Source of the DNA: Saprospiraceae bacterium
GTDB taxonomy: Bacteria > Bacteroidota > Bacteroidia > Chitinophagales > Saprospiraceae
DNA: 34,288 nt
Direction of reading: 5' to 3'
Assembly (NCBI GenBank): GCA_020848995.1
Contig: JADLHA010000033.1
Span: 1-34,288 of the forward strand
In this document: positions 10,633-33,219 of the stretch, piece by piece
How positions within the stretch are numbered: position 1 is the stretch's first letter
Layout: each line of letters begins with the position of its first letter
The notes under the pieces: model-generated
Told to the model about the DNA's origin: nothing
Seen by the model: the letters and a program-made list of their open reading frames with translations, nothing else
The model's database searches: none
Program-made: the position numbers and the translations under genes

Positions 10633-12000
10633 ATGGAAAAGACCAAGAAAATTTTACTCACAGAAAGAGACATTCCGCATCAGTGGTACAACATCATGGG
10701 CGATATGCCCAATCCCATGTTGCCTCCTCTGCACCCCGGGACGATGCAACCCATTGGTCCCGAGGACCTCGCACCTCTGTTTCCGATGGAGTTGATCAAA
10801 CAGGAAGTATCCGGGGAATCCTGGATCGAGATCCCCGACGAAGTGCGCGATGCGTATCGCATCTGGAGGCCCACGCCGCTCTATCGCGCACATCAGTTTG
10901 AAAAGCTGCTCGACACGCCCGCAAAAATTTATTATAAATACGAAGGGACCAGTCCCTCGGGTTCGCACAAGCCCAATACGGCCCTTGCCCAGGCCTATTA
11001 CAACAAAATGGAAGGTGTGCGCAAGCTCAGTACCGAAACCGGCGCTGGTCAGTGGGGGAGCGCCCTCAGTTTTGCGTGCAAGATGTTTGGGCTTGAATGC
11101 GAAGTTTTCATGGTAAAAATCAGTTATCAGCAAAAGCCCTTCCGCAAGATGCTGATGAACATCTGGGATGCTACAGTGCATGCTTCCCCAACCGACCTGA
11201 CGGATGCCGGCAAAGCCATTTTGCAGGCGGATCCCAATTCTCCGGGCAGCCTGGGCATTGCCATTTCGGAAGCCGTCGAGGTTGCAGCAAAAGATGGGAC
11301 GACTAAATATTCTCTGGGAAGTGTGCTCAACCATGTTTTGATGCATCAGACCGTGATCGGACTCGAAGCGGAGAAGCAGCTCGAAATGGCTGGGGATTTT
11401 CCCGATGTGGTCATAGCTCCATTCGGAGGGGGCTCCAACTTTGCAGGCATCACCTTCCCGTTTTTGAGGCACAACTTCCGCAATGGCAAAAACGTGCGTT
11501 GCATCGCCATCGAGCCGGCTTCCTGTCCCAAGCTCACCAAAGGGCAATTCCGCTATGACTTTGGTGACACCATTGGCATGACCCCACTGATTCCCATGTA
11601 TACCCTGGGCCACAATTTCCTGCCGGCCCCAATTCATGCCGGAGGACTGCGCTACCACGGCGCCGGGGCCATTGTCAGCCAGTTGCTGCGCGACAAACTC
11701 ATCGAAGCCCAGGCCATCCAGCAGCTCGAATGTTTTGAGGCAGGCGTGCAGTTTGCCGGAGCCGAAGGCATCCTTCCGGCACCAGAGGCCACCCATGCCA
11801 TCGCCGGAGTCGTGCGCGAGGCCAGGCGGGCCAGGGAAGAGGGCCAATCAAAAACCATTCTGTTCAACCTCTGCGGCCACGGTTACTTCGACATGAGCGC
11901 ATACCAGGACTACTTTAGCGGAAAACTCGTCGACCATCACTTTACAGACGACGAGCTGTACGCTAACCTGAGGGAGCTCAATACTCCGATCCCAGCATAA
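10633..12000 (+). CDS. trpB2: TrpB2-type tryptophan synthase beta chain-like PLP enzyme
   Basis: This is a fold-type II PLP enzyme of the TrpB2 branch, which joins indole with serine to make tryptophan without needing a TrpA partner and is often considered an indole-salvage protein. Started at the ATG at 10633 (a GTG three codons upstream is open) it has 455 residues, the TrpB2 length. The N-terminus (IPHQWYNIMGDMP, LHPGT) is the characteristic TrpB2 extension. The PLP lysine is Lys113 in GSHKPNTA, and the catalytic acid is Glu135 in ETGAGQWG; Trp after Gln is typical of TrpB2. No trpA or other trp gene is nearby. As first gene of the cluster it may bring indole into the pathway; a serine or tryptophan lyase role is an alternative. 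Confidence 0.88.
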   Translation: MEKTKKILLTERDIPHQWYNIMGDMPNPMLPPLHPGTMQPIGPEDLAPLFPMELIKQEVSGESWIEIPDEVRDAYRIWRPTPLYRAHQFEKLLDTPAKIYYKYEGTSPSGSHKPNTALAQAYYNKMEGVRKLSTETGAGQWGSALSFACKMFGLECEVFMVKISYQQKPFRKMLMNIWDATVHASPTDLTDAGKAILQADPNSPGSLGIAISEAVEVAAKDGTTKYSLGSVLNHVLMHQTVIGLEAEKQLEMAGDFPDVVIAPFGGGSNFAGITFPFLRHNFRNGKNVRCIAIEPASCPKLTKGQFRYDFGDTIGMTPLIPMYTLGHNFLPAPIHAGGLRYHGAGAIVSQLLRDKLIEAQAIQQLECFEAGVQFAGAEGILPAPEATHAIAGVVREARRAREEGQSKTILFNLCGHGYFDMSAYQDYFSGKLVDHHFTDDELYANLRELNTPIPA

Positions 12001-12021
12001 ATTCAAGGGTCTTTACCTGCA

Positions 12022-14142
12022 ATGCGTTTTAAAGTTGGAATCGACATAGGGGGTACTTTTACGGACGTCATCGCCATCGGCGACGGTGGGGAGACCTACG
12101 TGCACAAAACCCTGAGTACACCGGAAGATCCTTCGATCGGATTTATCAATGGATTAGCCGAGTTGGCTGAAAAGGCCGGAATGTCTGTACGCCAGTTTGT
12201 AGAACGCATTGACACCATCGTTCATGGCACTACGGTGGCGACAAACGCCCTGCTCACATTTCGCGGGGCAAAGACGGCCTTGCTGACGACCCGCGGTTTT
12301 CGCGACGCACTCGAGATGCGCCGTGGCATCCGCGAGGAGCAGTACAACAACCGGTACGAAAACGTCACGCCAATGGTGCCGCGACACCTGCGACTGCCGG
12401 TCGACGAAAGAGTGGATGCAGAAGGAAAGGTCGTTCGCAAACTCAACCGCAAAGAATTGGAGAAGCTTGCCGCGCAACTGAAGGCAGAAAACGTCGAATC
12501 GGTGGCCGTTTGTTTCGTCAACTCCTATAAAAATCCGACGCACGAATTGCAGGTTGCCGCTTTCCTTCGCAAAAAGCTCAGGCATTGTTTTGTGACGGCA
12601 TCCTGTGAAGTCCTGCCATGCATTCGCTTTTATGAGCGCGTTAGCACCACGGTGGTCAGCGCGTTTGTGGGTCCGATTGTTGCCCGATACATCGACCGCC
12701 TCGAGCAGAAGCTCTCGGAAGTCTCCTACCAGGGCACCTTGCTCATCATGCAATCGAATGGCGGGGTCGTTGCTCCCGAGGTGGTGAAAAGGATTCCCGT
12801 GGTTACCGTGTTGTCCGGACCCGCTGCGGCGCCAACGGCGGGAGCCTACTATGCTGCAATGCTCGGTTACGACCATTGCATCACCGTCGACATGGGCGGC
12901 ACGAGTTTCGATGCTGCGCTGGTCATCGGTGGCGAATGTGTGACGAGTACCGCAGGCAGCATCAACCGCTACCGCATCGCATTGCCTTCACTCGACATCG
13001 TCACCATCGGCGCCGGGGGCGGCAGCCTCGGATGGATCAACGACGGGGGCATGCTGCAGATGGGTCCGCAAAGTGCGGGCGCCCTTCCGGGACCGGCATC
13101 CTATGGTCGCGGGGGAAGCCTCCCGGCATGTACCGATGCCGACCTGCTGCTGGGCTATCTGGATCCCGGTTTTTTTGCCGGCGGACGACTCAAACTCGAC
13201 GTTGCTGCGGCTCAAAAGGCCATCAACGAACACCTGGCTGGTCCCCTGGGGCTGAGCCTCGTCGAAACGGCTGCGGGCATGTACCGCATCATCAACAGCA
13301 ACATGGCCCAGGGCGTGCGGCAGATTTCCGTCGAACGGGGTTACGACCCACGCGAATTCCTGTTCATCGTGGCTGGAGGTGCCGGACCGGTCCATGCCGC
13401 AGAGATCTGCTCGGAACTCGAAATCCCGGCATTCCTGGTGCCTGCGGTTTCATCGATTTTCTGCGCAGCGGGCATGTTGCTCGGTGACCTGAAACACGAC
13501 TACATCCGCTCCTGTTACGCTTCCTTCCGCGCGCTCGACCGCAAACGCGTCCTCGGACTTTTTGAAGAAATGCAAACGGAAGGGGTAGCAACGCTGAAAA
13601 AGGAAGGCGTTCCCGTTTCCAAAATCAGCTTTCATCCGGTACTCGACATGCGTTACGCCGGACAGTACCACGAAGTTCAACTTGCGGTAGAATGGAAAAC
13701 CGTACAGTCGTTCGCGTTGACAGACATCTTCGAAGCTTTTCACGCCGAGCACAATAGGCAATTCGGTTATTCACTCAAAGAGGAGGGAACGGAAATTGAA
13801 CTAATAAACGTTCGTTTGCGCGTCGTCGGGAAAAACGAAAAGCCGCAATTTGCAACGCCATCGGGCAAACCGGCAACTGCTGTTGAAGCTTTGAAGGGTC
13901 AACGGGAGGTGTACATTTCGGAACAACAGTCAATGCAAAGGGTAGCTGTGTACGATGGGGACCTGTACTTATCTGGAACATTGCTGAAGGGGCCCTGTGT
14001 GATCGAACGCATCACCACATCCATTTTTGTCAGTGCCCGCTACGACTGTCTTGTTGATCCTGCCGGATCATTTCTCGTATACGAGCGGGCGCGTTTCCCC
14101 GGAGGGGAAAGCGAAATCCGGAAGCGCTATCGTCATCGCTGA
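12022..14142 (+). CDS. Hydantoinase/oxoprolinase family protein, HyuA-type subunit
   Basis: HyuA-type subunits use ATP to activate an amide or carbonyl oxygen, with a HyuB partner, in N-methylhydantoinase, 5-oxoprolinase and acetone or acetophenone carboxylases. The 706-residue protein has the ASKHA-fold phosphate motifs GIDIGGTFTD (6-15), HGTTVATNA (about 71-79) and DMGGTSFD (near 290), and full family length. HyuB follows after 17 bp. In the indole-3-acetate cluster of Azoarcus/Aromatoleum a hydantoinase-like enzyme is proposed to hydrolyse the lactam ring of 2-oxoindole-3-acetate; the same role is inferred here because the other pathway enzymes are present. Hydantoin or 5-oxoproline hydrolysis is less likely from context. 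A near-match to the recurrent palindrome lies at 13805-13818. Confidence 0.88.
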   Translation: MRFKVGIDIGGTFTDVIAIGDGGETYVHKTLSTPEDPSIGFINGLAELAEKAGMSVRQFVERIDTIVHGTTVATNALLTFRGAKTALLTTRGFRDALEMRRGIREEQYNNRYENVTPMVPRHLRLPVDERVDAEGKVVRKLNRKELEKLAAQLKAENVESVAVCFVNSYKNPTHELQVAAFLRKKLRHCFVTASCEVLPCIRFYERVSTTVVSAFVGPIVARYIDRLEQKLSEVSYQGTLLIMQSNGGVVAPEVVKRIPVVTVLSGPAAAPTAGAYYAAMLGYDHCITVDMGGTSFDAALVIGGECVTSTAGSINRYRIALPSLDIVTIGAGGGSLGWINDGGMLQMGPQSAGALPGPASYGRGGSLPACTDADLLLGYLDPGFFAGGRLKLDVAAAQKAINEHLAGPLGLSLVETAAGMYRIINSNMAQGVRQISVERGYDPREFLFIVAGGAGPVHAAEICSELEIPAFLVPAVSSIFCAAGMLLGDLKHDYIRSCYASFRALDRKRVLGLFEEMQTEGVATLKKEGVPVSKISFHPVLDMRYAGQYHEVQLAVEWKTVQSFALTDIFEAFHAEHNRQFGYSLKEEGTEIELINVRLRVVGKNEKPQFATPSGKPATAVEALKGQREVYISEQQSMQRVAVYDGDLYLSGTLLKGPCVIERITTSIFVSARYDCLVDPAGSFLVYERARFPGGESEIRKRYRHR
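13805..13818 (+). promoter_or_regulatory. Recurrent palindromic motif, near match (in hyuA)
   Basis: TAAACGTTCGTTTG fits CNAACRNNYGTTNG at all but the first position. It lies inside the HyuA gene, about 340 bp before the HyuB start. It is one of a set of related sites in the cluster and could be operator-like; no function is shown. Confidence 0.25.
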
Positions 14143-14159: not shown

Positions 14160-15851
14160 ATGAAAAAGAAAAGTGAACAAAGCGTAGATAAGATCCTGGT
14201 ATCCATAATGCAGCGGGCTTTTAAGTCGATCACCGACGAAATGAGCATTTCGCTGACCAAGACCACGCGGTCACCAATATTGTGCGAGGCCAAGGATTTC
14301 GTCACCGGACTCTACGATGCGGAAGGACAGATGCTCGAACAAACGGAAAACCTGCCCATCTTGTCGTTTTCCCTGGGCCCCGTTTGTAAGGAGATCCTTC
14401 GTCAGTATGGCGACGACCTTCACGAAGGCGACGTCATCATCCACAACGACGTCTTCAGTATGGGCAACCAAAACAACGACGTGGCGATTTTCAAGCCAAT
14501 CTTTTTCGAAGGAGTGCTGGTAGGATGGTCTGCGGCCAAAGGGCATCAGGCGGATATTGGCGGCGCTGTTCAGGGAGGATACAACCCCAATGCAACCGAA
14601 GTTTGGCAGGAGGCCCTCCGCATCCCCGCAGTGAAGATTTATGAAAGGGGACATTTGCGACAGGATGTATGGAATCTCATTTTTGCCAACATCCGGTTGC
14701 AAATGGTGCAAGAGGACATCAAAGCACAAATGGGCGCCTGCACCCTCGGTGAACGCAGGCTTCAGGCGCTGTTTGCAAAATACGGAAAGGCGGTAGTGGA
14801 TCTTCACAAGCAGGCATTGTTCGATGCTACAGAGGCCATGATGCGCGCAGAGATTGAGCGATTCCCGTCGGGCGAATACAAAGGCAGCAGTTGGGTGTAT
14901 TACGACGGGAAGCATCCGGACAGCAAGTTCGAAGTGCGCGCCAAAATCCGCGTTGCCGGCGACGAGATCTGGTTTGATTTTTCAAAGTCCTCTCCACAGA
15001 CCAAGGGCTTTGTCAACGGAACGTTCACGTCTACCTGTTCAGCCATTACCCTTACCTTTCTGCAAATGGTCAACCCGGCCATACCGCACAACGAGGGCAT
15101 GCTCAAACCGCTGCACTACATCGTTCCGGAAGGGACCATACTCAACGCCTCATACCCGGCGGCGACGACCTTCGGAAACCACCTTTGTCCCCAAGTCGCG
15201 GATTCCATATTTAAAGCACTGGGCCCCGCCGTTCCGGAACGCGTAACAGCGGGCTGGAATCACCTGCTGTGCTCACTGTTTACCGGAATGCATCCGCGCA
15301 CCAATCGCAAATACGTCGACATCTGTTTCCTGGGAATGAAGGGGGGAAGCGGGGCGCTGCGGGGTTGCGACGGATACGACCACATTGGCATGATCGATGC
15401 ATCGGGAGGAGTGCTCGATCAGGATTACGAGATGTACGAGCAACAAACGCCCCATATGATCTTAAAACACGAATACCTCTGCGATTCCGGCGGCCCCGGT
15501 CAGTGGCGCGGTGGACTGGGAACCGAAACGCAAATCCTGTTGCGCGGAGACGATACGACGATGGTGGTATTTGGCGATGGCGACGTAGAACCCAACTACG
15601 GTTTGTTCGGTGGCAAGGGCAGCGTGCTCAACCGCATCGAACTCAGGTATCCCAACGGGAAACGCAAAATTCCCAGGAGCAAGGATATGGTCCACGGCAT
15701 TCCGGACGGAACGGTTTACCACCAAATCGCCGGTGGCGGGGGAGGCTACGGCAGGCCCAAAAAACGTCTGCGCGAAAAAATTTTGCAGGATGTGCGCAAC
15801 GGCGTCGTCAGCAAAAAAGCTGCCAAAGAAATTTACGGAGTCAAAAGCTGA
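14160..15851 (+). CDS. Hydantoinase/oxoprolinase family protein, HyuB-type subunit
   Basis: This is the partner subunit of the preceding HyuA protein and holds the hydrolytic or carboxylating half-reaction. At 563 residues it has normal family length. Family marks include the N-terminal stretch with MSISLTKTTRSP and FVTGLYDAEG, the metal-site region KGHQADIGG (near 126-134) with the following QEALRIPAVKIYERG, and the C-terminal glycine-rich segment IAGGGGGYG. The inferred substrate is the lactam of a 2-oxoindole-3-acetyl compound, yielding 2-aminophenylsuccinate. Its stop codon is immediately followed by the ATG of the Rid-family gene. Confidence 0.88.
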   Translation: MKKKSEQSVDKILVSIMQRAFKSITDEMSISLTKTTRSPILCEAKDFVTGLYDAEGQMLEQTENLPILSFSLGPVCKEILRQYGDDLHEGDVIIHNDVFSMGNQNNDVAIFKPIFFEGVLVGWSAAKGHQADIGGAVQGGYNPNATEVWQEALRIPAVKIYERGHLRQDVWNLIFANIRLQMVQEDIKAQMGACTLGERRLQALFAKYGKAVVDLHKQALFDATEAMMRAEIERFPSGEYKGSSWVYYDGKHPDSKFEVRAKIRVAGDEIWFDFSKSSPQTKGFVNGTFTSTCSAITLTFLQMVNPAIPHNEGMLKPLHYIVPEGTILNASYPAATTFGNHLCPQVADSIFKALGPAVPERVTAGWNHLLCSLFTGMHPRTNRKYVDICFLGMKGGSGALRGCDGYDHIGMIDASGGVLDQDYEMYEQQTPHMILKHEYLCDSGGPGQWRGGLGTETQILLRGDDTTMVVFGDGDVEPNYGLFGGKGSVLNRIELRYPNGKRKIPRSKDMVHGIPDGTVYHQIAGGGGGYGRPKKRLREKILQDVRNGVVSKKAAKEIYGVKS

Positions 15852-16271
15852 ATGCACATGGCACACCAACACATTCTGCCCGAGGGCTGGCCAGTCCCCA
15901 AGGGATATGCAAACGGAATCCTCGCAGATCGCGGCCGCCTGCTCTTCATTGCCGGCCAGGTAGGCTGGGATGAAAATGAAGAATTTTCGAGTCCGGACAT
16001 CGTTCCGCAATTCGAGCGCGCATTGAAAAATATACTAACAATTGTTAGTGCCGCAGGAGGTTCTGCCTCCGACATCTGCCGGATGACCTGTTATTGTAAA
16101 GACCGCAATGCCTACCTTACGGCACGCAAGGAGCTGGGCGCCATTTGGAAATCGGTTTTGGGCAGGCACTATCCTTGTATGAGCATGATCTTTGTAAGTG
16201 ACCTGCTCGACCATCCCGCGCTCATCGAAATCGAGGCCACCGCGGTGATTCCCTCTGGCCAGGGTGCATGA
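15852..16271 (+). CDS. Rid (YjgF/YER057c/UK114) family protein lacking the deaminase arginine
   Basis: Rid proteins are small trimeric proteins; the RidA subgroup hydrolyses reactive enamines and imines released by PLP enzymes. This 139-residue protein shows the family pattern (LLFIAGQVGWD, then DICRMTCYCKD, ending LIEIEATAVIP). The arginine required for imine hydrolysis in RidA, in the segment YPARS, is replaced here: YPCMS with Met110. It is therefore probably not a classical imine deaminase and may act on a cluster intermediate. It is directly abutted by HyuB upstream and by the acyl-CoA dehydrogenase downstream (TGA followed at once by ATG in both cases). The assignment to the family is firm, the function unknown. 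Confidence 0.85.
   Translation: MHMAHQHILPEGWPVPKGYANGILADRGRLLFIAGQVGWDENEEFSSPDIVPQFERALKNILTIVSAAGGSASDICRMTCYCKDRNAYLTARKELGAIWKSVLGRHYPCMSMIFVSDLLDHPALIEIEATAVIPSGQGA
16034..16049 (+). promoter_or_regulatory. Perfect 16-bp palindrome of the recurrent motif (in the Rid gene)
   Basis: ACTAACAATTGTTAGT is a perfect palindrome and fits CNAACRNNYGTTNG at 16035-16048. It is inside the Rid-family gene, about 220 bp before the acyl-CoA dehydrogenase start. It could be an internal operator. Confidence 0.35.
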
Positions 16272-17408
16272 ATGAGGAGTATGCAGGCATTGAATGAAAC
16301 ACAGCGGTCGGTCCAGCAGAGTTTTCGAGAATTCGTAGACCTTCGCGTTTTGCCGCAGGCGAGGAACATAGACCGCGAGCAGCTGTTCCCGATGGACCTG
16401 TTTCGCGAAGTGGCAGCGCTTGGTTTTTTTGGAATGCGATATCCGGAAACCGCCGGCGGCAGCGGAATGGATAACATCAGTTATGCGCTGGCCGTCATGG
16501 AACTCGCCCGCGGCTCACTTTCTTTGGCCGCTGCCTGCACCATGCAGTCGCTCATGGGAACCCATTTCCTGCACCGGTACGGCGATCAAGAGCTCCTCGA
16601 ACGGTTTTTTCGTCCGGCGCTGCGGGGAGAACTGATCGGGGCCATTTGCATGACGGAACCAAATGCCGGCAGCGACCTGATGGGGATCAGTACCCATGCA
16701 CGCAAAACGGAGGAGGGCTTTGTGCTCAACGGCCAAAAGACCTGGGTCACTTCCGCTCCGGTCGCCGACTTCTTTACGGTGCTTGCAAAAAATGAGGGCC
16801 TGGATGGTCTTTCTATTTTCCTGGTTCCCGCCAGGACTCCTGGTCTGCAGCTTGGAAAGCCCATCGAAAAAATGGGCGTTCGCGGATCGCCAACGAGCGA
16901 ACTGTCGTTCGCCGATGTACTCGTCCCCAAGAACCATCTGCTGGGTCCTTTGGGAGGAGGCACAGCCAGTCTCAGAGAGATCCTCGTAGAGATTCGCATC
17001 ATGACGGCCGCACTGGCAGTTGGCATTGCTCAGGCCGCAAGGGACGAGGCCGTGAAATATTCTGCGGAGCGCATGCAGTTTGGCAAACCCATTGCGGCGT
17101 TCCAGGCCATCCAGCTCAAACTTGCGGAGATGGAGATGCAACTGGAAACGTCACGCACCTATACGCTACATGTTGCAGCGCTTGCCGACCGCCTGGAACC
17201 GCGCCACAAAGAAGCCATGATCGCCAAACTCCACGCTTCTGAAGCGGCATGCGCGATCTGCGACCAGGCGGCGCGCATTATGGCATCGTACGGGTATTCG
17301 ACCGATTTCTCTGCCGAACGCCTGCTGCGCGATGTCCGCTTTACTCTCATTGGCGGAGGAACCTCCGAAATCCTTAAAATCAACATCGCAAAAGAAATGA
17401 AGGAATGA
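16272..17408 (+). CDS. Acyl-CoA dehydrogenase without the usual catalytic glutamate; putative 2-aminobenzylmalonyl-CoA dehydrogenase (decarboxylating)
   Basis: This FAD-dependent acyl-CoA dehydrogenase has 378 residues, family length. Recognisable are the FAD-binding signature CMTEPNAGSDL (near 126-136), WVTSA, and the C-terminal RLLRDVRFTLIGGGTSEI. In medium-chain enzymes the catalytic base is the Glu of YEGT; here that position is Gly362. In isovaleryl- and long-chain enzymes the base sits in helix G; aligning from memory on the following Arg (Arg242) puts Ile241 there, with Glu240 one residue off. A base would not be needed if the substrate is a benzylmalonyl-type CoA ester that loses CO2 to form the carbanion. 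I therefore infer oxidative decarboxylation of 2-aminobenzylmalonyl-CoA to 2-aminocinnamoyl-CoA. A structure-based alignment could move the base to Glu240. Confidence 0.85.
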   Translation: MRSMQALNETQRSVQQSFREFVDLRVLPQARNIDREQLFPMDLFREVAALGFFGMRYPETAGGSGMDNISYALAVMELARGSLSLAAACTMQSLMGTHFLHRYGDQELLERFFRPALRGELIGAICMTEPNAGSDLMGISTHARKTEEGFVLNGQKTWVTSAPVADFFTVLAKNEGLDGLSIFLVPARTPGLQLGKPIEKMGVRGSPTSELSFADVLVPKNHLLGPLGGGTASLREILVEIRIMTAALAVGIAQAARDEAVKYSAERMQFGKPIAAFQAIQLKLAEMEMQLETSRTYTLHVAALADRLEPRHKEAMIAKLHASEAACAICDQAARIMASYGYSTDFSAERLLRDVRFTLIGGGTSEILKINIAKEMKE

Positions 17409-17496: not shown

Positions 17497-17883
17497 ATGA
17501 AGGTACTTTTGGCAAAGCCCGGTCTCGACGGTCACGACGTAGGTGTGAAAGTGCTGGCTCACGCCCTGCGCGAAGCGGGGTTTGAAGTCGCTTACACGGG
17601 CTTGCGCAAATCCATTGGGCAGATTGCAGACCAGGCGCAAAAATTGAATCCCGACGTCATCGGACTGTCGATCCTCTCCGGGTCGCACCTGATCCTCTGT
17701 GCGAAAATGCGGGAGGAACTGGAGCGGAGAAAACTAAACATACCCTGGATCGTGGGAGGCAACATTCCCGACCAGGACGTAAAATCACTCATCGAACTCG
17801 GCGCCAGGTGCGCATTCCCATCGGGTACGCGGATCGAGGAAGTCATCCGCTATTTTGAGGGGATGAAACAAACCACCGGATGA
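17497..17883 (+). CDS. Cobalamin-binding small subunit of a B12-dependent acyl-CoA mutase
   Basis: The 128-residue protein is a stand-alone B12-binding domain of the methylmalonyl-CoA mutase class. It has the complete signature: Asp11-x-His13-x-x-Gly16 (the His replaces dimethylbenzimidazole as lower cobalt ligand), Ser58-x-Leu60, and a later VGGNIPD. The catalytic large subunit is encoded three genes downstream (21349-23022), so the holoenzyme is heteromeric, as in isobutyryl-CoA, 2-hydroxyisobutyryl-CoA and archaeal methylmalonyl-CoA mutases. An 88-bp gap separates it from the acyl-CoA dehydrogenase gene. Its presumed reaction is the interconversion of 2-aminophenylsuccinyl-CoA and 2-aminobenzylmalonyl-CoA. 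Confidence 0.93.
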   Translation: MKVLLAKPGLDGHDVGVKVLAHALREAGFEVAYTGLRKSIGQIADQAQKLNPDVIGLSILSGSHLILCAKMREELERRKLNIPWIVGGNIPDQDVKSLIELGARCAFPSGTRIEEVIRYFEGMKQTTG

Positions 17884-17889
17884 GTCAAA

Positions 17890-17945: not shown

Positions 17946-19145
17946 ATGCGAGAAGTACAGACCATTTTTCCGGAAGCCAGAATTCCGTACGGGACCTGGG
18001 GCTGCAGCTATTTTCCAGCCTGGCAGACCTCTCCGCTTGCGGAGGTCAACATTGGCCAGTTTGCCGGGGAGGCCATGGCGCGCATCTTGGCCCTGCGAAA
18101 AGTGCAGTTGCAAAAACTCGACTACCTGGTCATTGGATCCACCGTTCCCTGGCATTATAAATTCTGGAATGCCACCGTGGTTTCGATGTGCGCAGGACGC
18201 CGCATTCCAGGATTTCACGTAGAACAGGCCTGTGCAACGGGACTGCAGGCTATCCTGCTGGCAGCAGCGCAGGTGTCGAGTGGAGCGAGCGAGAGCGTCG
18301 GTGTGCTCACCTTCGACCGCACCAGCGATTCGCCCGTAGGGGTTTTTCCCGAACGCCGCAGTTACCGGAGAACCGAAGTCATCAGCGACGTATGGGACAA
18401 CTTCGGTTTTGATCCGGCAACGGGAAAGGCCATGCTGCAATCTGCCGGCAACATTGCCCGCAAATACGGCCTCAGCAAGCAGGAAGTCGACGAGTTGACG
18501 GCCTGCCGGTACGAACAATATTTTAAGGGCCGATCATCGGGCTTCATACAGCGATGCGCCGTGCCCTTGGAAATTTTAAATGCCCAGGGAAAACCGATGG
18601 GTGTGATCGATGAAGACAAAGGGGTGAAACCAATTTCCCTGCAGTCCCTGCGCAGCATGCGCGAACTCGATTCCTGTGTTACCAGCGGAACGCAGACGCA
18701 TGCTGCCGACGGGATGGCCACACTGGTGGTCGCGTCGCGTGAAGGTGCGAAAGCCCTCAGTGCGCGCCCCGAGATCGACATCCGGTTCGTTGCCAAGGTC
18801 GAAGTGCGCGCAGGCGCATCCTGCATGCCGGAAGCTCCTGCTCTGGCCGTCGGGCAGTTGTTAAAAAATACCGGACTTTCGCTGAGCGACATCGCCGTCG
18901 TCAAAGATCACAACCCCTTTGCCGTTAACGATGCCGTATTTGCCAAGACCTTCCAATACGACTGGCGCAAAATGAACAACAATGGTTGTCCTCTGGTATG
19001 GGGTCACCCACAGGGACCCACCCTTACACGCGTCGTCATGGAAGCGCTCGAAGAAGCCGTCGATCTTGGCGGCGGATACGTCCTCGTGTTTGGATGCGCT
19101 GCAGGAGACGTTGGCATCGCCGCGCTGTTTAAGGTCGATGGCTGA
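17946..19145 (+). CDS. Thiolase family protein (putative 3-oxoacyl-CoA thiolase of the cluster)
   Basis: Thiolases cleave 3-oxoacyl-CoA with CoA to an acyl-CoA and acetyl-CoA. The 399-residue protein keeps the three usual catalytic residues: nucleophile Cys96 (EQACATGLQA), His354 in WGHPQGP and Cys384 in VFGCAAGDVG. The usual NEAF loop is replaced by HNPF (in VKDHNPFAVND), a departure from standard acetyl-CoA acetyltransferases that may reflect an aromatic substrate. In the inferred pathway it would release acetyl-CoA from 3-(2-aminophenyl)-3-oxopropionyl-CoA, giving 2-aminobenzoyl-CoA. The gene starts 62 bp after the B12-binding subunit. Confidence 0.88.
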   Translation: MREVQTIFPEARIPYGTWGCSYFPAWQTSPLAEVNIGQFAGEAMARILALRKVQLQKLDYLVIGSTVPWHYKFWNATVVSMCAGRRIPGFHVEQACATGLQAILLAAAQVSSGASESVGVLTFDRTSDSPVGVFPERRSYRRTEVISDVWDNFGFDPATGKAMLQSAGNIARKYGLSKQEVDELTACRYEQYFKGRSSGFIQRCAVPLEILNAQGKPMGVIDEDKGVKPISLQSLRSMRELDSCVTSGTQTHAADGMATLVVASREGAKALSARPEIDIRFVAKVEVRAGASCMPEAPALAVGQLLKNTGLSLSDIAVVKDHNPFAVNDAVFAKTFQYDWRKMNNNGCPLVWGHPQGPTLTRVVMEALEEAVDLGGGYVLVFGCAAGDVGIAALFKVDG

Positions 19146-27400: not shown

Positions 27401-27838
27401 TGTTCCGGAACGCACCGCAGCGTGATTGGCGCCATTGCTTCCGGCAAGCGGGCGGCAAATTCCATCCGCAGGCATCTTGAAAATTACCCTTATGCCTACG
27501 AAGGCGAACAAACGTTTGTAAGGTTGTGTGAAGATTCGACTAAAACTAACGTACGTTCGTTAGTAAATGGAAAGGAAGCAGGAGCTCCTGTTTATGAAGA
27601 AGCAGTCCTTCCACAAGACTGGACAACCCGGATGGAATTTTTTAACCTCTTCCAGTCCTGCATGAAATGCAACCACTGCATTGAGAATTTCGGATGCCCG
27701 GCCATGGTGATGCGCAACGGAAAGGTGGTCATCGACGACAACGCCTGTACGCTTTGCGGACTGTGCATCGACGTATGCCCAAACGATGCCATCCGGTGGG
27801 TCGCCATCGAAACTGAAGAAGAACTCACCCTCACATGA
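24413..27838 (+). CDS. iorA: Indolepyruvate oxidoreductase alpha subunit with an inserted GltD-like flavoprotein module
   Basis: IorA, with IorB, oxidatively decarboxylates aryl-pyruvates to aryl-acetyl-CoA. This 1141-residue protein is nearly twice the usual IorA length. Residues 1-580 are the thiamin-dependent part, with YPGTPSTE near 43, LCSGCPHR near 400 and the thiamin motif GDGTFFHSG...N near 475. From about 595 to 1060 a GltD-like module is inserted: N-terminal iron-sulfur cysteines (CPANIC; CGDICHRPCE), the FAD site Gly733-x-Gly735-x-x-Gly738, and the pyridine-nucleotide site Gly866-Gly-Gly868. The usual C-terminal 2[4Fe-4S] ferredoxin domain follows (Cys1083, 1086, 1089, 1095; Cys1112, 1115, 1118, 1122). 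I infer that electrons can pass to NAD(P)+ rather than only to free ferredoxin. The stop overlaps the iorB start. Confidence 0.92.
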   Translation: MLKATVDILRSYSQAEPRCVMGNVAIARGAIEAGVQGVFAYPGTPSTEISEVFKHVDAYLTDPGANPNQDGIAVHELYFEYSINEKIALEKAIAFAVASQRAMCVMKNVGMNVASDALMSIPYQTFAGALVIVLCDDPGCHSSSNEQDSRWWGTMASVPVLNPATPQEAKELTQQAFSLSEAIHLPVIVRSTTRVSHARGMVIYGELPGSGPAPAYDRVPEHINIPSRNTGAHQALLARIARPEVQASLQRCTRKLVEASTSRAVICSGITVAYLLELHAASAGQTGVSILEIQMVHPFPESEVLAFLRNGYDQVLVLEELDPIVENNIRLIAQKHGMSVDVFGKGFSGLTSAGEYSLDLVAKALHSFSGAPVESGIPLPAWEAMCKNLPPRPPALCSGCPHRATFYLLKLAMPRENRELVLCGDIGCFGLGALPPLKMIDTINHMGMSISMAQGLSTALARERKSWKTVALVGDGTFFHSGLASLVNAVYTRANVLVVIFDNRTIGMTGHQSHPGAARRLPKYREIELAPMLKGLGIEMVETINPFELREGMQRLNRAMQHEGVSVVIAQSPCIFLPEFKEGMPYRRRIAVDPKRCNSCGNHEDLSLSCSRRQSPSGNLVRARAKLMAPKAIAGERQLCPANICNHGFFFAIRDGDYRSAIEIVRDKMLFARTCGDICHRPCELFAGMPDKVPVKALKKFVSGIDEHFFDFSIPIARAEQAAKSNWRVAIVGAGPAGLSAAYDLLQAGYSVDVFERRHEAGGMVIAAIPGFRMDKQGFRFEAGQLEAMGARFHFGKSLGSELELSELAAQWDAVVLALGQWRPATLPVLQKLNGQGPRVDAVHFLERFNEGLDTGIPDGDLLVVGGGNSAIDAARAARKLFPSRRVVVSCLEREEEMPAFAEEIAHARNEGVEIWADTMLARCEASQTLHVTLNRYSSGEAVAAFTVGGIISAIGQQVCFEDLGGPEAAWWDGHGRLDPEALRREYPNVFVAGDLCSGTHRSVIGAIASGKRAANSIRRHLENYPYAYEGEQTFVRLCEDSTKTNVRSLVNGKEAGAPVYEEAVLPQDWTTRMEFFNLFQSCMKCNHCIENFGCPAMVMRNGKVVIDDNACTLCGLCIDVCPNDAIRWVAIETEEELTLT
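27505..27564 (+). promoter_or_regulatory. Tandem pair of the recurrent palindromic motif (in iorA)
   Basis: CGAACAAACGTTTG at 27505-27518 and CTAACGTACGTTCG at 27546-27559 both fit CNAACRNNYGTTNG exactly. The second sits in the near-perfect 20-bp palindrome ACTAACGTACGTTCGTTAGT (27545-27564); the first contains the perfect palindrome ACAAACGTTTGT. Their centres are 41 bp apart, about four helical turns. They fall in the linker between the flavoprotein module and the ferredoxin domain, where protein sequence constraint is low, 270 bp before iorB. Confidence 0.4.
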
Positions 27839-28440
27839 GAAACGGAGCGGAGCGGTGCAAGATCATGATTGCAGGGGTTGGCGGCCAGGGAATTGTCTAT
27901 TTGTCCAACCTCATCGTAGAAGCGGCTGTGGCCAGTGGCATCTCCGCAAGCGTAAGCGAGATCCACGGACTTTCTCAGCGCAGCGGCATCGTCACCTCGG
28001 GCATTGGCCTGGGTGAACACTGCACGGGGTTCCTGGCCCGGGCCAGCGTAGACCTGCTCTTCGGACTCGAGGCCCTGGAGACGCAACGCTGCCTCCCCTG
28101 GCTCCACCGCAACAGCAGCGTGGTGTTTTGCAATCACCGCCTGCTGCCTCACGCCGTCAATGCGCGCACCGCAGAATATCCGGATCCCGGCCAACTCGCC
28201 CGATACCTTCAAAACCATTGCAGGGAGGTCGTCTGCATCGACACCCGGCAGCTGCTCATTGATACCATTCGCCTCAACCTCTTCTGCCTTGGCGTCGCCA
28301 CCCGGCTCGCGCAGTTCCCGCTGGAAACGGTCGCCATTGAACAGGCCCTGGCCCGCACCAGCACAGAACGAAATTTGGAAAAGTCCCTTGAGGTGTTCCG
28401 GCAGGGAATGGAATGCGAACGAAACCCGACTTGTCTATGA
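27835..28440 (+). CDS. iorB: Indolepyruvate oxidoreductase beta subunit
   Basis: The 201-residue IorB subunit (gamma-type domain of the 2-oxoacid oxidoreductases) completes the enzyme with iorA. It has the marks GVGGQGIVYLSNLI near the N-terminus and SEIHGLSQRSG near residue 42, which belong to the CoA-binding region. The start overlaps the iorA stop as ATGA and the stop overlaps the next start in the same way, so iorA, iorB and the molybdenum hydroxylase genes are translationally coupled. The product expected here is indoleacetyl-CoA. Confidence 0.92.
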   Translation: MRNGAERCKIMIAGVGGQGIVYLSNLIVEAAVASGISASVSEIHGLSQRSGIVTSGIGLGEHCTGFLARASVDLLFGLEALETQRCLPWLHRNSSVVFCNHRLLPHAVNARTAEYPDPGQLARYLQNHCREVVCIDTRQLLIDTIRLNLFCLGVATRLAQFPLETVAIEQALARTSTERNLEKSLEVFRQGMECERNPTCL

Positions 28441-28994
28441 CACCATCAACAGAATCCGGAAGCCCTCCAATTATAAACGAACGAACGATTGTTTGCCAAA
28501 TCAATGGGCGTACCGTGACGCAGCCGGTGCAGCCGCTGACGAGCCTGCTCGAACTGCTGCGCGACCGCCTGGGGTTGCGGGGAACAAAATCCGCCTGCAA
28601 CGAAGGGGAATGCGGCGCCTGTACCGTATTGGTCGACTACGTAGCTGTAAATGCCTGTCTCTTTCTGGCAGTAAACGCCCATGGAAGCAACATACTCACC
28701 ATCGAGGGCATGCTTCAGCCAGGTGGCGGACTCGACGAAGTGCAACGCGCACTCGTCGAGCACGGCGCCGTGCAATGCGGATTCTGCACTTCCGGAATGG
28801 CAATGCGCATTCGTGCACTCGTCAATGAGCAAGGGGCGCATCCGGCTGATCCCGCTTCGGGCATGCGGGTCCTGCCTTCGCGGGCAGACATCCAGAAACA
28901 GCTGGAGGGCAACCTGTGTCGCTGCACGGGATACATCAAAATCGTAGATGCCGTGGAGGCATTGTTGCAAAAAAAGTACGGCAATCCTGCATGA
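28437..28994 (+). CDS. Molybdenum hydroxylase, 2Fe-2S subunit (xanthine oxidase family)
   Basis: This 185-residue subunit carries the two [2Fe-2S] clusters that link the molybdenum site to FAD. Cys54, Cys59, Cys62 and Cys74 form the plant-ferredoxin-type cluster; VQCGFCTSGM and NLCRCTGY form the second. The ATG overlapping the iorB stop (28437) is chosen; one at 28413 would overlap iorB by 28 bp. An N-terminal stretch of about 15 residues precedes the fold, with no twin-arginine signal. With the two following genes it makes a heterotrimeric hydroxylase that inserts oxygen from water into an N-heterocycle, here probably at C2 of the indole ring. Confidence 0.93.
   Translation: MTPSTESGSPPIINERTIVCQINGRTVTQPVQPLTSLLELLRDRLGLRGTKSACNEGECGACTVLVDYVAVNACLFLAVNAHGSNILTIEGMLQPGGGLDEVQRALVEHGAVQCGFCTSGMAMRIRALVNEQGAHPADPASGMRVLPSRADIQKQLEGNLCRCTGYIKIVDAVEALLQKKYGNPA
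28482..28495 (+). promoter_or_regulatory. Recurrent palindromic motif at the start of the 2Fe-2S subunit gene
   Basis: CGAACGATTGTTTG fits CNAACRNNYGTTNG. It lies 45 bp inside the 2Fe-2S subunit gene, in the codons of its variable N-terminal extension, and is preceded by two direct AACG repeats. It could regulate transcription entering the molybdenum hydroxylase genes. Confidence 0.3.
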
Positions 28995-31306
28995 AAAAAC
29001 AGCTCGACATCATTGGCAAGGGCATACCCAAACAAGATGCAGGTCTTCGCGCGTCCGGGAGAGCGGTGTATGGGCAGGACATCGTCCTGCCGGGGATGCT
29101 GTACGGCGCCATCCTGCGCACCGAATATCCGTCGGCGGCCTTTTCGCTCGACCTTACAGATGCACTTACACTGCCGGGCGTCGCCTGCATCATCACGGCG
29201 GATGACGTAGATGTCAACCGCATCAGTTACAAACGCGACCATCCGGTACTCAAACAGGGAGAAGTATGTTGCATCCGAGATGAGATCGCCGCCGTAGCAG
29301 CAGAAACCCGCGAAATCGCGGAGGAGGCGGTACGCCGGATCAAGGTGCGATACGAAATTCGCAAACCCTGCTGCGACCCGTTTGACGCGTTACAGGAAGA
29401 CGCCCCGACGATCAACCGCTTCGCAGGTGGAAAATTTTCTCACAAGAACATCGCCGAAACCTTCCATTATGCCCATGGCGACCTCGAAGCAGAGCGCGCC
29501 CGGAGCAAGATCGTCCTGAGCAGGAGGTTTTCGCTTCCCCGCATGACGCACGCCTGCCTTGGACCCAGCAGCATTACGGCCGATTGCGACATCGTCTCCC
29601 GCAAACTCACGCTGTACAGCTCGACGCAGGTGCCATTCCTCTACCAGCGCGACATGGCCCATGCCTTGAAGATGCCGCCTTCCGACATCCGGATCATTCA
29701 GCCCATCATTGGAGGCGGCTTCGGAAGCAAACTCGACATGTACCCCTTTGAGGTGATCTGTGCTTTGCTTTCCATGCGCACGGGCAGACCAGTCCAGATC
29801 GTCTATTCCCGCAAAGAAGAATTCATCGCCTCGCCAACGCGTCAGCCCATGATCATCGACCTGACTGCCGGGGTCGATGCCGAAGGAAAGTTTACCTTCC
29901 GCGAAGTGGACATAGTTAAAGACAACGGCGCCTACACTTCCTGGGGGGCAACTACGCCTTTTGTCATCATGCAGGCATTTTCTTCCCTTTATAAAGTCAG
30001 GGCCTGCCGCTTTGACGCAAAAGCTGTTTACACCAATAACGTTTTCGCAGGCTCTTTTCGTGGCTATGGAAATCCGCAGGCAACGTTTGCGCTGGAGCGC
30101 ATGATCGATCTGCTGGCTGCAGCCATTGGAATGGACCAGGCGGAAATCCGTCGCATCAATGCCAACGAACCCGGAGAAATTACCGGACAGGGTCTGCATT
30201 ACGAAACCTGCGGGCATGGTGAATGCCTCGACGTGGTGATCCGGCAAAGTGAACGGGTAAGGAACACCGCAAACGGCGGTGCTTCGCGCCTTCAGGGCCG
30301 CTACCGCAGCGGCGTGGGGTTTGCATCCATGCTGCACGTGGGCGGCGGAGCGAAGATCTACCGCTCCGATGGCTGCGGAACGACCGTTCGCATTGATCCC
30401 TATGGACATTGCACCATCATCACCGGATCGACTGAAATTGGTCAGGGATCGGAAACCGTCCTGGCCATGATCGCTTCGGAGGAACTGGGTATTGCACCCG
30501 ACCGCATCTCGGTGATCAATTCAGATACCGATGTAAAGCCCTGGGATGTCGGCGTACACGCATCGCGTACGAGTTTTGTCGCCGGAAATTCATTGCTCGG
30601 CGCCATCGCCATCCTTCGCAAAAAGCTCGAATCCAAAGCCAGGCAACTCCTGCAATGCGGCGACGCAGAATTGGCGTTTCGCAACGGCCTTATTGAAACG
30701 GAAGACGGCGCAGCCCACGTGGCACTCGACAAGGTCGTGCGCGAAATGCATTTCGGCGAACCCAACGAGCTGGCCGTAGCAAATTTTTTTTACGAACCGC
30801 CCAGCCAATTTCAGGATACAGGATTCAAAGGCAACGTCTCCGGTAGCTACGCATTTGCTGCGCAGGCCATAGAAGTGGAAGTGGATTGCTGTACGGGAAA
30901 CGTGAAGGTTAAGAACGTTTGGGTGGCCCAGGATGTGGGGAAAGTATTGAACCAAATGCTGCTCGAGGGACAGATCCACGGGGGCGTTCTGCAGGGCATC
31001 GGATACGCACTCTACGAAGAGCTCCTGATGGACGGAGGCTACATCATCAACCCCAATTTTCACAACTACAAACTCCCCACCGCCTCCGACGTCCCTCCGA
31101 TTCACTTTCACCCCGTTGAAACATACGACCGGCATGGACCTTATGGAGCCAAAGGCGTCGGCGAGGCTCCTCTCATCCCGACTGCAGCAGCCATCGCCAA
31201 TGCCGTGAGCAATGCGCTGGGCGTCGAGATCAGTTCACTTCCCGTTACACCTGAAAAAGTATTGAGGGCATTGGAAGAGAAAAATCACAAAATGCATCTG
31301 GCATGA
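28991..31306 (+). CDS. Molybdenum hydroxylase, molybdopterin-binding large subunit
   Basis: This 771-residue catalytic subunit belongs to the xanthine oxidase/CoxL family. It shows the molybdopterin-binding GGGFGSK motif near 240, further conserved stretches such as FRGYGNPQ and STEIGQGSETV, and the general-base glutamate Glu725 in GVGEAPLIPTAAAI. The CoxL-type loop with selenylcysteine (VAYRCSFR) is absent, so it is not a CO dehydrogenase. The start is the ATG overlapping the preceding stop; an in-frame ATG 75 bp upstream lies within the 2Fe-2S gene and is rejected. By analogy to the indoleacetate cluster of Azoarcus/Aromatoleum, hydroxylation of indoleacetate (or its CoA ester) at C2 is inferred. 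Confidence 0.92.
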   Translation: MKKQLDIIGKGIPKQDAGLRASGRAVYGQDIVLPGMLYGAILRTEYPSAAFSLDLTDALTLPGVACIITADDVDVNRISYKRDHPVLKQGEVCCIRDEIAAVAAETREIAEEAVRRIKVRYEIRKPCCDPFDALQEDAPTINRFAGGKFSHKNIAETFHYAHGDLEAERARSKIVLSRRFSLPRMTHACLGPSSITADCDIVSRKLTLYSSTQVPFLYQRDMAHALKMPPSDIRIIQPIIGGGFGSKLDMYPFEVICALLSMRTGRPVQIVYSRKEEFIASPTRQPMIIDLTAGVDAEGKFTFREVDIVKDNGAYTSWGATTPFVIMQAFSSLYKVRACRFDAKAVYTNNVFAGSFRGYGNPQATFALERMIDLLAAAIGMDQAEIRRINANEPGEITGQGLHYETCGHGECLDVVIRQSERVRNTANGGASRLQGRYRSGVGFASMLHVGGGAKIYRSDGCGTTVRIDPYGHCTIITGSTEIGQGSETVLAMIASEELGIAPDRISVINSDTDVKPWDVGVHASRTSFVAGNSLLGAIAILRKKLESKARQLLQCGDAELAFRNGLIETEDGAAHVALDKVVREMHFGEPNELAVANFFYEPPSQFQDTGFKGNVSGSYAFAAQAIEVEVDCCTGNVKVKNVWVAQDVGKVLNQMLLEGQIHGGVLQGIGYALYEELLMDGGYIINPNFHNYKLPTASDVPPIHFHPVETYDRHGPYGAKGVGEAPLIPTAAAIANAVSNALGVEISSLPVTPEKVLRALEEKNHKMHLA

Positions 31307-32181
31307 GCAGGGTTGAAATGCACATACCGCATTCGATGGAAGAACTGCTTGCCCTGCTGGGGCGTATGGGAGAGCGTCCTTACCGGTACATTGCCGGGGG
31401 GACCGACGTGTTGCTGGAACTGCGGCGAAAGCCGGAGGCAGATCAAGTGCTCATTAACCTGTACAAGGTGAGCGGATGGGGTTTTCGGGAGATCAGCCAC
31501 GAAGGTCGCAGCTGGTGGATTGGGGCAGGGGTCACCATCGGTCAGCTTGCCGCAGATACCGGAATTGCAGCCAACTTCCCCGTGCTGCATCAGGCGGCAC
31601 TGCACCTGGCATCTCCACAGATCCGGAATCTGGCCACGGTCGGTGGAAACGCCTGTACCGCCTCGCCTTCCGGTGACGTGGCCTGTGCATTGGTTGCGTT
31701 GGATGCCGTGGCGGTTGCCATCGACGCACAAGGCAAGCGTCGACGGATGCGCCACGACGCATTTTACCTCGGTCCCCGGAAAACTGCTTTGCGCAGCGAC
31801 GAATGCCTGCTCGGTTTCGAATTGGAAGCGGCGGACCCCTCACTAAAAATTGTGCGTTCACAGTATGCGAAGGTCGGGACCCGGATGTCGATGGAGTGTT
31901 CGGTGGTCTCGCTTGCCAGCCACCTGCTGGCCGATGAAAAGGGTTGTCTTCGTTCCTGTGGCGTGGCCATTGGCGCCGTGGCTCCTACCATACGTCGCAC
32001 CGATGATGCCTGCCGGATGCTGGAAGGCAAAATCATGGGCGGGATTTCGGAGCAGGACGTCCTCGCCTTTGCCGATGCCGTCGCAGCCTGTGCATCCCCC
32101 ATCAGCGACCTGCGAGCAAGCGCCTGGTACCGGGACCGGGTGCTGCGCAACCTCGCAACCGATATGATCAGCACGCATTAA
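31303..32181 (+). CDS. Molybdenum hydroxylase, FAD-binding subunit
   Basis: The 292-residue protein is the FAD-binding (CoxM/CutM-like) subunit. It has the flavin contacts RYIAGGTDVLLELR near 28 and IRNLATVGGNACTASPSGD near 107, and a C-terminal CO-dehydrogenase-flavoprotein domain. It passes electrons from the iron-sulfur clusters to an acceptor such as NAD+ or a quinone-linked carrier. It overlaps the large subunit by 4 bp (ATGA) and is followed after 3 bp by the aminotransferase gene. Confidence 0.92.
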   Translation: MSRVEMHIPHSMEELLALLGRMGERPYRYIAGGTDVLLELRRKPEADQVLINLYKVSGWGFREISHEGRSWWIGAGVTIGQLAADTGIAANFPVLHQAALHLASPQIRNLATVGGNACTASPSGDVACALVALDAVAVAIDAQGKRRRMRHDAFYLGPRKTALRSDECLLGFELEAADPSLKIVRSQYAKVGTRMSMECSVVSLASHLLADEKGCLRSCGVAIGAVAPTIRRTDDACRMLEGKIMGGISEQDVLAFADAVAACASPISDLRASAWYRDRVLRNLATDMISTH

Positions 32182-32184
32182 ACG

Positions 32185-33219
32185 ATGAAGGAAGCAGACC
32201 ATACCCAGGAAACCATCCGCCTGAACTTCAACGAGAACTGTTACGGATGTTCACCCCTCGTCAGAGCAGGCGTTGAAGGAGTGCTGTTGAAGGAACTGCA
32301 CCTTTACCCCAGCGCACCGGTGCGACTTGAAACTGAACTGGCCCGGCGCTTTGGGCTCAACCTCGATCAGGTCATTGCCGGCGCAGGATCTGTCCGCCTC
32401 ATCGACGGACTCATCCAGACGCTGGTGGACGAGACCGGTGAACTGCTCATTTTTGAGAACAGCTTTGTGGCTTATGAACAACTGGCACAGGCTCATTCAA
32501 AGAATTATCGACTCATACCGCAAAGCGATTTCATTTGCGACCCCCAGGCCATACTGGATGCCCTGACCCCCCAAACGCACCTGGTGTTTTTGGCGAATCC
32601 CAACAACCCAACGGGGACCTTCATCGCCCACGACCAACTCGAACAACTGTTAGTTCATTTACCCACAACTGTTTTTTTAGCGCTCGACGAGGCCTACGTG
32701 GAATACGTAACCGACCCTGCCTATCCGGATGCGCTTGCGTTGCTCAAACGCTTTCCAAATCTGATCGTCCTGAGGTCATTTTCCAAAATGTACGGGCTCG
32801 CTGCTTTGCGCATTGGTTATGCCCTGGCCGATGCGGCCTTGTGTCGTGCAATGAAAAAAAAGCAAATCCCGTTTTCAATCAACAGAGTCGCCGAAGAAGC
32901 AGCCCTGATTGCACTGGAGGATCAGCTTTTTGTAGAATACTGCAAGAAGGAAAACGAAACCGGCCGCAACTATTTGTGGAAGGAGCTCACCGCTGCGGGT
33001 TTCCACGCGCTGCCATCCCAGGGAAACTTTATCTACCTGCACTTTGACCATAAAGGCGATGCATCCAATGCAGCATCAGCACTCGCACGCTGCGGGATCC
33101 TCGTCAGCGACCTCCCCAGCGGTGGGCCGCAAGGCGCACTGCGCATCGGCGTAGGCGATCAGGCGGCCAACAGCCGGGTTGTCGAGTGCCTGCGAAGCCT
33201 GCCTCCGGTCCGCAAATGA
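32185..33219 (+). CDS. HisC-like PLP aminotransferase, putative aromatic amino acid aminotransferase
   Basis: This 344-residue fold-type I aminotransferase resembles histidinol-phosphate aminotransferases. Seen are LNFNEN at the N-terminus, LANPNNPTG with the PLP-binding Asn, LDEAYVEY with the Asp, and the PLP lysine Lys201 in SFSKMYG, followed by the phosphate-binding LRIGY region. No his genes are nearby, and HisC-like enzymes often act on aromatic amino acids. With the indolepyruvate oxidoreductase in the same transcript, tryptophan to indole-3-pyruvate is the likely reaction. Tyrosine or phenylalanine as substrate, or genuine histidine synthesis, remain possible. It is the last gene of the tightly packed part of the cluster. 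Confidence 0.88.
   Translation: MKEADHTQETIRLNFNENCYGCSPLVRAGVEGVLLKELHLYPSAPVRLETELARRFGLNLDQVIAGAGSVRLIDGLIQTLVDETGELLIFENSFVAYEQLAQAHSKNYRLIPQSDFICDPQAILDALTPQTHLVFLANPNNPTGTFIAHDQLEQLLVHLPTTVFLALDEAYVEYVTDPAYPDALALLKRFPNLIVLRSFSKMYGLAALRIGYALADAALCRAMKKKQIPFSINRVAEEAALIALEDQLFVEYCKKENETGRNYLWKELTAAGFHALPSQGNFIYLHFDHKGDASNAASALARCGILVSDLPSGGPQGALRIGVGDQAANSRVVECLRSLPPVRK
32640..32653 (+). promoter_or_regulatory. Recurrent palindromic motif (in the aminotransferase gene)
   Basis: CGAACAACTGTTAG fits CNAACRNNYGTTNG. It is within the aminotransferase coding region, with the A/T variant at the fourth positions from the centre shared with the 16034 site. Function is unknown. Confidence 0.22.

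Follow-up and report, generated by a model that had tools for sequence, protein, structure and literature searches.

A sixteen-gene block on a Saprospiraceae contig

The window analyzed here is a 34,288-nucleotide stretch from a Saprospiraceae bacterium (assembly GCA_020848995.1, contig JADLHA010000033.1), which is the entire contig C33 of the 3.1 Mb genome that holds it (G000, completeness rating 100%). It carries a block of sixteen genes that a sequence-only reading had taken for a route from tryptophan through indoleacetyl-coenzyme A (indoleacetyl-CoA) to 2-aminobenzoyl-CoA. We regard the block, with a probability of about 0.8, as an oxygen-free catabolic operon for tryptophan that leads to 2-aminobenzoyl-CoA and ring reduction. 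The open reading frame (ORF) calls confirmed the sixteen co-directional genes, all on the + strand from 10624 (ATG 10633) to 33219, with TrpB2 first and an aminotransferase last. The spacings as called range from -79 to 103 bases and are below 60 or overlapping in 11 of 15 cases; a search for a sigma-70-like promoter upstream of the block found none. The proteins were classed by Pfam and NCBIfam profile scans with curated cut-offs. These bore out the enzyme classes proposed earlier except for the dehydrogenase half of one fusion protein, where residues 1-400 had no listed match in either library and the class comes from the fold.

The block begins with a TrpB2-type tryptophan synthase beta protein (10624-12000, likely ATG 10633; TIGR01415, NF009057), followed by HyuA, a subunit of an ATP-dependent lactam hydrolase with three hydantoinase/oxoprolinase A-type Pfam domains (12022-14142), its partner subunit HyuB (14160-15851; PF02538, 481 bits) and a Rid-family protein of the imine/enamine hydrolase family (15852-16271; PF01042). 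Next come an IaaF-like decarboxylating acyl-CoA dehydrogenase (16272-17408), with acyl-CoA dehydrogenase domains and the motif IGGGTSEI, and an IaaH-like B12-binding mutase subunit (17497-17883) with a DGHDVG motif (TIGR00640, 111 bits versus a cut-off of 57). An aryl-acyl thiolase (17946-19145; PF00108/PF02803; Cys96, GHPxG and CAAG motifs) precedes the 3-hydroxyacyl-CoA dehydrogenase/enoyl-CoA hydratase fusion (19208-21295; hydratase half by NCBIfam), the IaaG-like large subunit of the B12 mutase (21349-23022; PF01642, 633 bits) and an IaaL-like class III CoA-transferase (23080-24309; PF02515, 212 bits). The remaining genes encode IorA fused to a GltD/YgfK-type NAD(P)H flavoprotein and carrying a 4Fe-4S domain (24413-27838; TIGR03336, NF009410, Fer4), IorB, the indolepyruvate oxidoreductase beta subunit (27835-28440; PF01558, TIGR03334), the three subunits of a molybdenum (Mo) hydroxylase and a HisC-like aminotransferase (32185-33219; PF00155). 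The hydroxylase subunits are the 2Fe-2S protein XdhC (28413-28994; PF00111, PF01799), the xanthine-dehydrogenase-type Mo-cofactor protein XdhA (28916-31306; PF02738, PF20256, PF01315) and the flavin adenine dinucleotide (FAD) protein XdhB (31303-32181; PF00941, PF03450). The overlap of XdhA with the preceding ORF becomes smaller if the ATG near 28991, the likely start, is used.

Conservation of the block in other genomes

The gene order is identical in the sister genome G006, with 79-98% identity. All fifteen block genes other than TrpB2 are present in G006, G434, G435, G436 and G437, and twelve of the fifteen in G433, whose contig begins at IaaF. The order HyuA-HyuB-Rid-IaaF-IaaH-thiolase-fusion-IaaG-CoA-transferase-IorA-IorB-XdhC-XdhA-XdhB-aminotransferase is kept in G433, G434, G436 and G437 with small changes, IaaH being relocated in G437 and other ORFs intervening in some genomes. 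Conservation of the gene order was found in G006 and for the most part in these four genomes; it did not extend to G435, where the block lies in two pieces on a single contig, nor to TrpB2, which is absent from G433-G437. HyuB, IaaG and thiolase of G433-G437 are 74-82% identical to those of the window, and Ior, XdhC, XdhB and aminotransferase 40-58%. The earlier placement of the pathway in Bacteroidota agrees with the record name of the sister, Saprospiraceae. Of the G433-G437 records, three bear the name Bacteroidetes, one Competibacteraceae and one Ignavibacteriales.

Three other genomes, G773, G849 and G519, have the block with a thiolase and/or hydratase/dehydrogenase of other families; the G849 contig begins just before HyuA and the G519 contig stops after IaaG. 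Where seen, HyuB is 77-82% identical to that of the window in seven genomes, the sister excluded. Counting G000, HyuA was found in 2 of 9 genomes of the genus; in the family, 5 of 398 genomes gave a HyuB match with an E value of 1e-150 or better. A tblastn search of plasmids with HyuB gave nothing at 60% identity or more, and one of 46 genomes from the phylum of locus L090, run with no positive control, gave nothing at E 1e-130. G199 contains HyuA, CoA-transferase, thiolase and fusion over two contigs; its HyuA (L029:3177-6080) adjoins a BcrC-like ORF of 34% identity.

Mutase and dehydrogenase motifs

The path from tryptophan through indoleacetyl-CoA to 2-aminobenzoyl-CoA is supported by the GGG motif of the dehydrogenase, an invariant mutase motif, the Ior front end and linkage to reductase genes. 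According to the available part of PMC8360864, all IaaF enzymes carry GGG, most other acyl-CoA dehydrogenases carry YEG or variants of it, and GGG is a marker of the benzylmalonyl-CoA branch. GGG is present in the block dehydrogenase of all ten genomes (the window and nine others), and YEG in six of six unrelated non-block dehydrogenases of the fetched loci. The enzyme is predicted to convert (2-aminobenzyl)malonyl-CoA to 2-aminocinnamoyl-CoA.

The mutase is encoded by two separate genes for a large and a B12-binding subunit, as is IaaGH. Comparison with solved mutases showed that IaaG retains the Tyr and Arg found in human methylmalonyl-CoA mutase, positions that are Ile and Gln in 2-hydroxyisobutyryl-CoA mutase. 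The Tyr/Arg pair plays a role in substrate choice by these mutases, and its retention is compatible with a free carboxylate on the substrate. The HxQT motif, present in all four solved mutase chains compared (three different proteins), is replaced in IaaG by IAGGGG, and the pattern RMIAGGGG[AG]GLT occurs in 10 of 10 genomes. This change may provide space for an aryl group, and IaaGH would rearrange (2-aminophenyl)succinyl-CoA to (2-aminobenzyl)malonyl-CoA. The CoA-transferase, assigned at the level of the class III family, where its likeness to IaaL also lies, would shift CoA between the two carboxyls.

Front end and predicted ring opening

The closest PDB chain to the aminotransferase is 4r2n, a putative phenylalanine aminotransferase. 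The flavoprotein part of the IorA fusion matches NF009410 with 244 bits over residues 638-1129. This fusion was found in all five of G433-G437, at 51-58% identity, and also in G773 and G849. The proposal of a front end with no ligase is supported: the aminotransferase and the Ior fusion travel with the block, and no ligase was recognized from HyuA to the aminotransferase in any block stretch examined. The aminotransferase, the IorA-flavoprotein fusion and IorB thus appear to replace the CoA ligase of the iaa operon. Since indolepyruvate would be oxidized directly to indoleacetyl-CoA, activation would cost neither a CoA ligase nor ATP. The IorA-fusion match of G437 (L042/L152) crosses one stop codon, for which an assembly fault and a broken gene are both possible. 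G434 has an additional class I/II aminotransferase within the block (L034:7194-8483), flanked by Rid and IaaF.

A Mo hydroxylase step and a HyuAB step are part of the iaa pathway in Aromatoleum. The solved structure closest to XdhA is 4-hydroxybenzoyl-CoA reductase, with quinoline 2-oxidoreductase third, and that closest to HyuA is 6yra, labelled 5-oxoprolinase. We infer C2 hydroxylation of the indole ring for the XdhA-type hydroxylase and oxindole ring opening for HyuA.

Thiolase and hydratase/dehydrogenase fusion

The thiolase would cleave 2-aminobenzoylacetyl-CoA to 2-aminobenzoyl-CoA and acetyl-CoA. The AlphaFold model of the fusion protein has a mean predicted local distance difference test (pLDDT) score of 88. 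It aligned to beta-oxidation multifunctional enzymes with template modelling (TM) scores of about 0.3-0.4, and to a stand-alone 3-hydroxybutyryl-CoA dehydrogenase with 0.67 on the target and 0.30 on the query, so that for the putative dehydrogenase half the modelled fold alone speaks. The window-type thiolase is swapped in G773, G849 and G519 for what we read as a DUF35/ketosynthase-like protein together with a thiolase from a different family. In G773 and G519, HyuA is preceded by a protein whose hydratase half is FadJ-like. The families of these replacement proteins were scanned in G773 alone, where the DUF35/ketosynthase-like protein had no NCBIfam match. Equal reactions carried out by other families in the three genomes support the beta-oxidation assignment.

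The fusion occurs at full length in 2 of 395 sampled genomes of the phylum, G000 and G199. A thiolase scan of genome contigs gave 152 relatives, the best 80 of which were examined; the Aromatoleum genome was not represented in this set. Further block genes beyond the thiolase/fusion pair were present at six of these 80 loci, the sister included. The fetched flank held a gene for a reductase, a 2-hydroxyacyl-CoA dehydratase or Had at 34 loci, and no reductase-type gene was matched in it at the other 46, including the six block loci. No pathway could be named for L054, L058 and L061 on inspection. The window-type thiolase and fusion also co-occur (L032-L111) in a wide range of uncultured groups, whose record names include Zixibacteria, Gemmatimonadota, Acidobacteriota and Elusimicrobia.

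Linkage to benzoyl-CoA reductase

On another contig of G000 (C32, about 25000-46500; L132, L133) lies a probable class I benzoyl-CoA reductase cluster that includes BcrC, BcrB, BcrA and BcrD. The cluster also contains an AMP ligase, a HadB-like dehydratase, a ketopantoate-reductase/activase fusion, Had, Oah, a dienoyl-CoA-hydratase-like protein, a 4-hydroxybenzoyl-CoA-reductase-like enzyme and KorAB. Curated cut-offs were exceeded by four of these proteins, BcrC, BcrB, Had and Oah. Adjacent pairs of the BcrA/BcrD family (PF01869) with strong scores were found in all eight tested genomes with the block or part of it (G000, G006, G199 and G433-G437), and adjacent PF01869 pairs in two of six genus members that have no block. 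The two gene sets are joined in G773, where a co-directional run of about 40 kb holds BcrCBAD, HyuAB, TrpB2, IaaF, IaaGH, IorAB, XdhABC, Had, Oah and KorAB; the G519 run starts in the same way and continues until its contig ends. Having reductase genes and block in one run gives the clearest indication of a benzoyl-CoA analogue as product.

The C32 cluster together with the thiolase/hydratase pair suggests breakdown of Phe and Tyr via aryllactyl-CoA and cinnamoyl-CoA to benzoyl-CoA. The single pair of G000 may serve both this branch and the tryptophan branch, because the sole full-length window-type fusion found in that genome is the one in the window. At L037, L039 and L043, the thiolase/hydratase pair is located inside class I benzoyl-CoA reductase clusters.

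TrpB2 and a possible entry of indole

TrpB2, the most novel part of the block, had no place in the reasoning of the sequence-only reading. It passes both of its cut-offs (TIGR01415, 636 bits versus 519; NF009057, 722 versus 366), and the solved chains nearest to it bear the label tryptophan synthase beta chain 1 or 2. It is present in all five clusters from genomes recorded as Saprospiraceae, as the first gene in the window and G006 and flanked by HyuB and Rid in G773, G849 and G519. The 98% identity between the window and sister copies, higher than for other operon genes, had suggested a mere upstream neighbour; this was rejected, as TrpB2 is found inside the G773, G849 and G519 clusters. The TrpB2 query had no match in G199 and no second TrpB match in G000; a canonical TrpB is encoded outside the cluster in G773 and G849, and G519 has a further TrpB2 copy elsewhere. 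In a tree of 14 rows, the window pair grouped with G009, a genome with no HyuA match (support 95/95); the copies from the remaining clusters joined the second G519 copy (92/99). The two branches in this small tree are consistent with two recruitments.

The predicted role of TrpB2 is the joining of indole and L-serine to tryptophan. The available part of PMC11085991 describes a bifidobacterial TrpB that forms tryptophan from exogenous indole and serine, and quotes a reference in which TrpB2 is reported for indole salvage. It is about an even bet that Saprospiraceae break down free indole with no oxygen, by a serine-primed TrpB2 route that continues through transamination, indoleacetyl-CoA and iaa-type steps to 2-aminobenzoyl-CoA as substrate for benzoyl-CoA reductase. 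In such a route, the serine skeleton would be the handle for ring opening and replace direct hydroxylation of indole to oxindole.

Discussion

From the observed gene content, gene order, motifs and co-occurrence we infer the substrates, the order of steps and the entry of indole as follows. The aminotransferase would convert tryptophan, optionally made from free indole and serine by TrpB2, to indolepyruvate, whose oxidation by IorA-flavoprotein/IorB would yield indoleacetyl-CoA together with CO2 and NAD(P)H. XdhABC would place an oxygen from water onto indole C2, and HyuAB would open the resulting lactam with ATP to yield (2-aminophenyl)succinyl-CoA. After the CoA-transferase had moved CoA to the other carboxyl, IaaGH would carry out the rearrangement to (2-aminobenzyl)malonyl-CoA, and IaaF would oxidize and decarboxylate this to 2-aminocinnamoyl-CoA. 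In the last steps, 2-aminobenzoyl-CoA and acetyl-CoA would be formed by the fusion protein and the thiolase, and the class I benzoyl-CoA reductase of C32 could carry the ring onward.

Several observations weigh against this reading. IorA (TIGR03336, 588 bits) and IorB (TIGR03334, 107 bits) are under their cut-offs of 651 and 206, and we therefore class the pair as indolepyruvate-oxidoreductase-like and flavoprotein-fused. HyuA (NF050156, caprolactamase alpha, 682 bits) and HyuB (NF050157, 401 bits) stay below the cut-off of 1000 in both cases, so membership in the caprolactamases (CapAB) is not reached, and XdhA is under the cut-off of its named model. In the C32 cluster, BcrA (411 versus 578), BcrD (310.1 versus 312.85) and the dienoyl-CoA hydratase fall under theirs. 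Nothing in the block was recognized as an electron acceptor dedicated to IaaF, and XdhB of G773 has no adjoining aminotransferase. G199 showed no IorA fusion; searches there did not extend to IaaF, IaaGH and further block genes. For the entry of indole, the TrpB2 query had no match in G433-G437. TrpA was above cut-off in none of the 14 genomes searched (G000, G006, G433-G437, six block-less genus members and G438), with 14 of 14 controls positive and weak matches in two of the seven; as the lack of TrpA extends to all 14, it has no particular link with the block.

The rival that deserves most attention leaves the pathway as proposed and takes TrpB2 to salvage indole for protein tryptophan in cells with no TrpA, so that free indole would be no catabolic substrate. 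TrpA found no match in G000 and G006, the window copy is the only TrpB match of G000, the salvage report mentioned above gives a precedent (quoted in the available part of PMC11085991), and five block genomes do without TrpB2. We nevertheless consider this account tentative, somewhat less probable than its opposite, as a tryptophan-making gene in a tryptophan-destroying operon would be self-defeating, cluster copies are kept despite a canonical TrpB or a second TrpB2 elsewhere in G773, G849 and G519, and they take two different places in the cluster and split into two branches in the small tree. A different proposal is that imported indoleacetate (auxin) is degraded as in Aromatoleum, with the aminotransferase and IorAB as a side entry. 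The downstream enzyme classes match indoleacetate degradation, and an AMP ligase is present in the G000 reductase cluster and also forms part of the runs of G773 and G519. That ligase, however, adjoins the HadB-like dehydratase and does so likewise at the block-less loci L052 and L111. An auxin-only role was rejected, as no ligase was recognized in the block stretches examined, and the proposal as a whole is improbable.

The substrate of the block could also be another aromatic 2-oxo acid or an N-heterocycle, such as phenylpyruvate or quinoline. Ior-type enzymes act on several arylpyruvates, and XdhA resembles quinoline 2-oxidoreductase. Aromatic 2-oxoacids are treated in the available part of PMC13290082. 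However, breakdown of phenylalanine has no evident need of a lactam hydrolase, a GGG-type dehydrogenase or TrpB2, and a separate G000 gene set could handle Phe and Tyr, making this option marginally less probable still than auxin import. The idea of unrelated neighbours from purine or hydantoin use and propionate metabolism draws on the closest solved or curated homologues, namely 5-oxoprolinase/N-methylhydantoinase, caprolactamase, 2-hydroxyisobutyryl- and methylmalonyl-CoA mutase and 4-hydroxybenzoyl-CoA reductase. Such homologues from other pathways speak against the proposed reading on their face only, as no iaa protein was named in the match lists of these libraries. Chance neighbours were rejected, as nine genomes other than that of the window carry the set, and mutase and dehydrogenase both depart invariantly from those relatives; the probability left for this idea is negligible.

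The preferred reading, tryptophan breakdown to 2-aminobenzoyl-CoA, combines parts of known systems. With the iaa operon of Aromatoleum aromaticum (available part of PMC8360864), the block shares the GGG dehydrogenase, two-subunit B12 mutase and class III CoA-transferase, compared by class and motif, and the predicted end product 2-aminobenzoyl-CoA. It differs in the use of the aminotransferase and the IorA-flavoprotein fusion instead of the ligase IaaB and, in the Saprospiraceae, in the addition of TrpB2. Gut acetogens, as described in the available part of PMC13290082, likewise use an aminotransferase and then a 2-oxoacid oxidoreductase (OFOR) to indoleacetyl-CoA, but end at indoleacetate, whereas the block would open the ring. 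Bifidobacteria also join indole and serine by TrpB and channel the tryptophan on, but end at indolelactate (available part of PMC11085991); the TrpB of the block is of type 2 and lies within a ring-degradation operon. BcrCBAD, the dienoyl-CoA-hydratase-like protein, Had, Oah and KorAB of C32 resemble the class I benzoyl-CoA reductase pathway, with the differences that the G000 cluster is on a separate contig and three of its proteins are under cut-off. What is new lies in the front end, the host range and the link with TrpB2, the chemistry downstream being known already. This novelty is claimed within limits: no description of the route in Bacteroidota was found among the papers listed, by title and abstract opening, in a literature with subscription papers mostly outside. 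For uncultured bacteria, the block provides an explicit list of genes for breaking down tryptophan and probably also indole. IaaF GGG, mutase IAGGGG and the IorA-flavoprotein fusion form a marker set for finding the route. If the reading is true, Bacteroidota are a group in which the breakdown of tryptophan and ring reduction of class I converge.

Flanking genes

A cytochrome c domain protein (9286-10305) lies about 320 bases upstream of TrpB2; it is retained in G006 and stands outside the conserved block. A TauE/SafE permease (33294-34097) follows the aminotransferase as a co-directional seventeenth gene and was seen there only in the window and G006.

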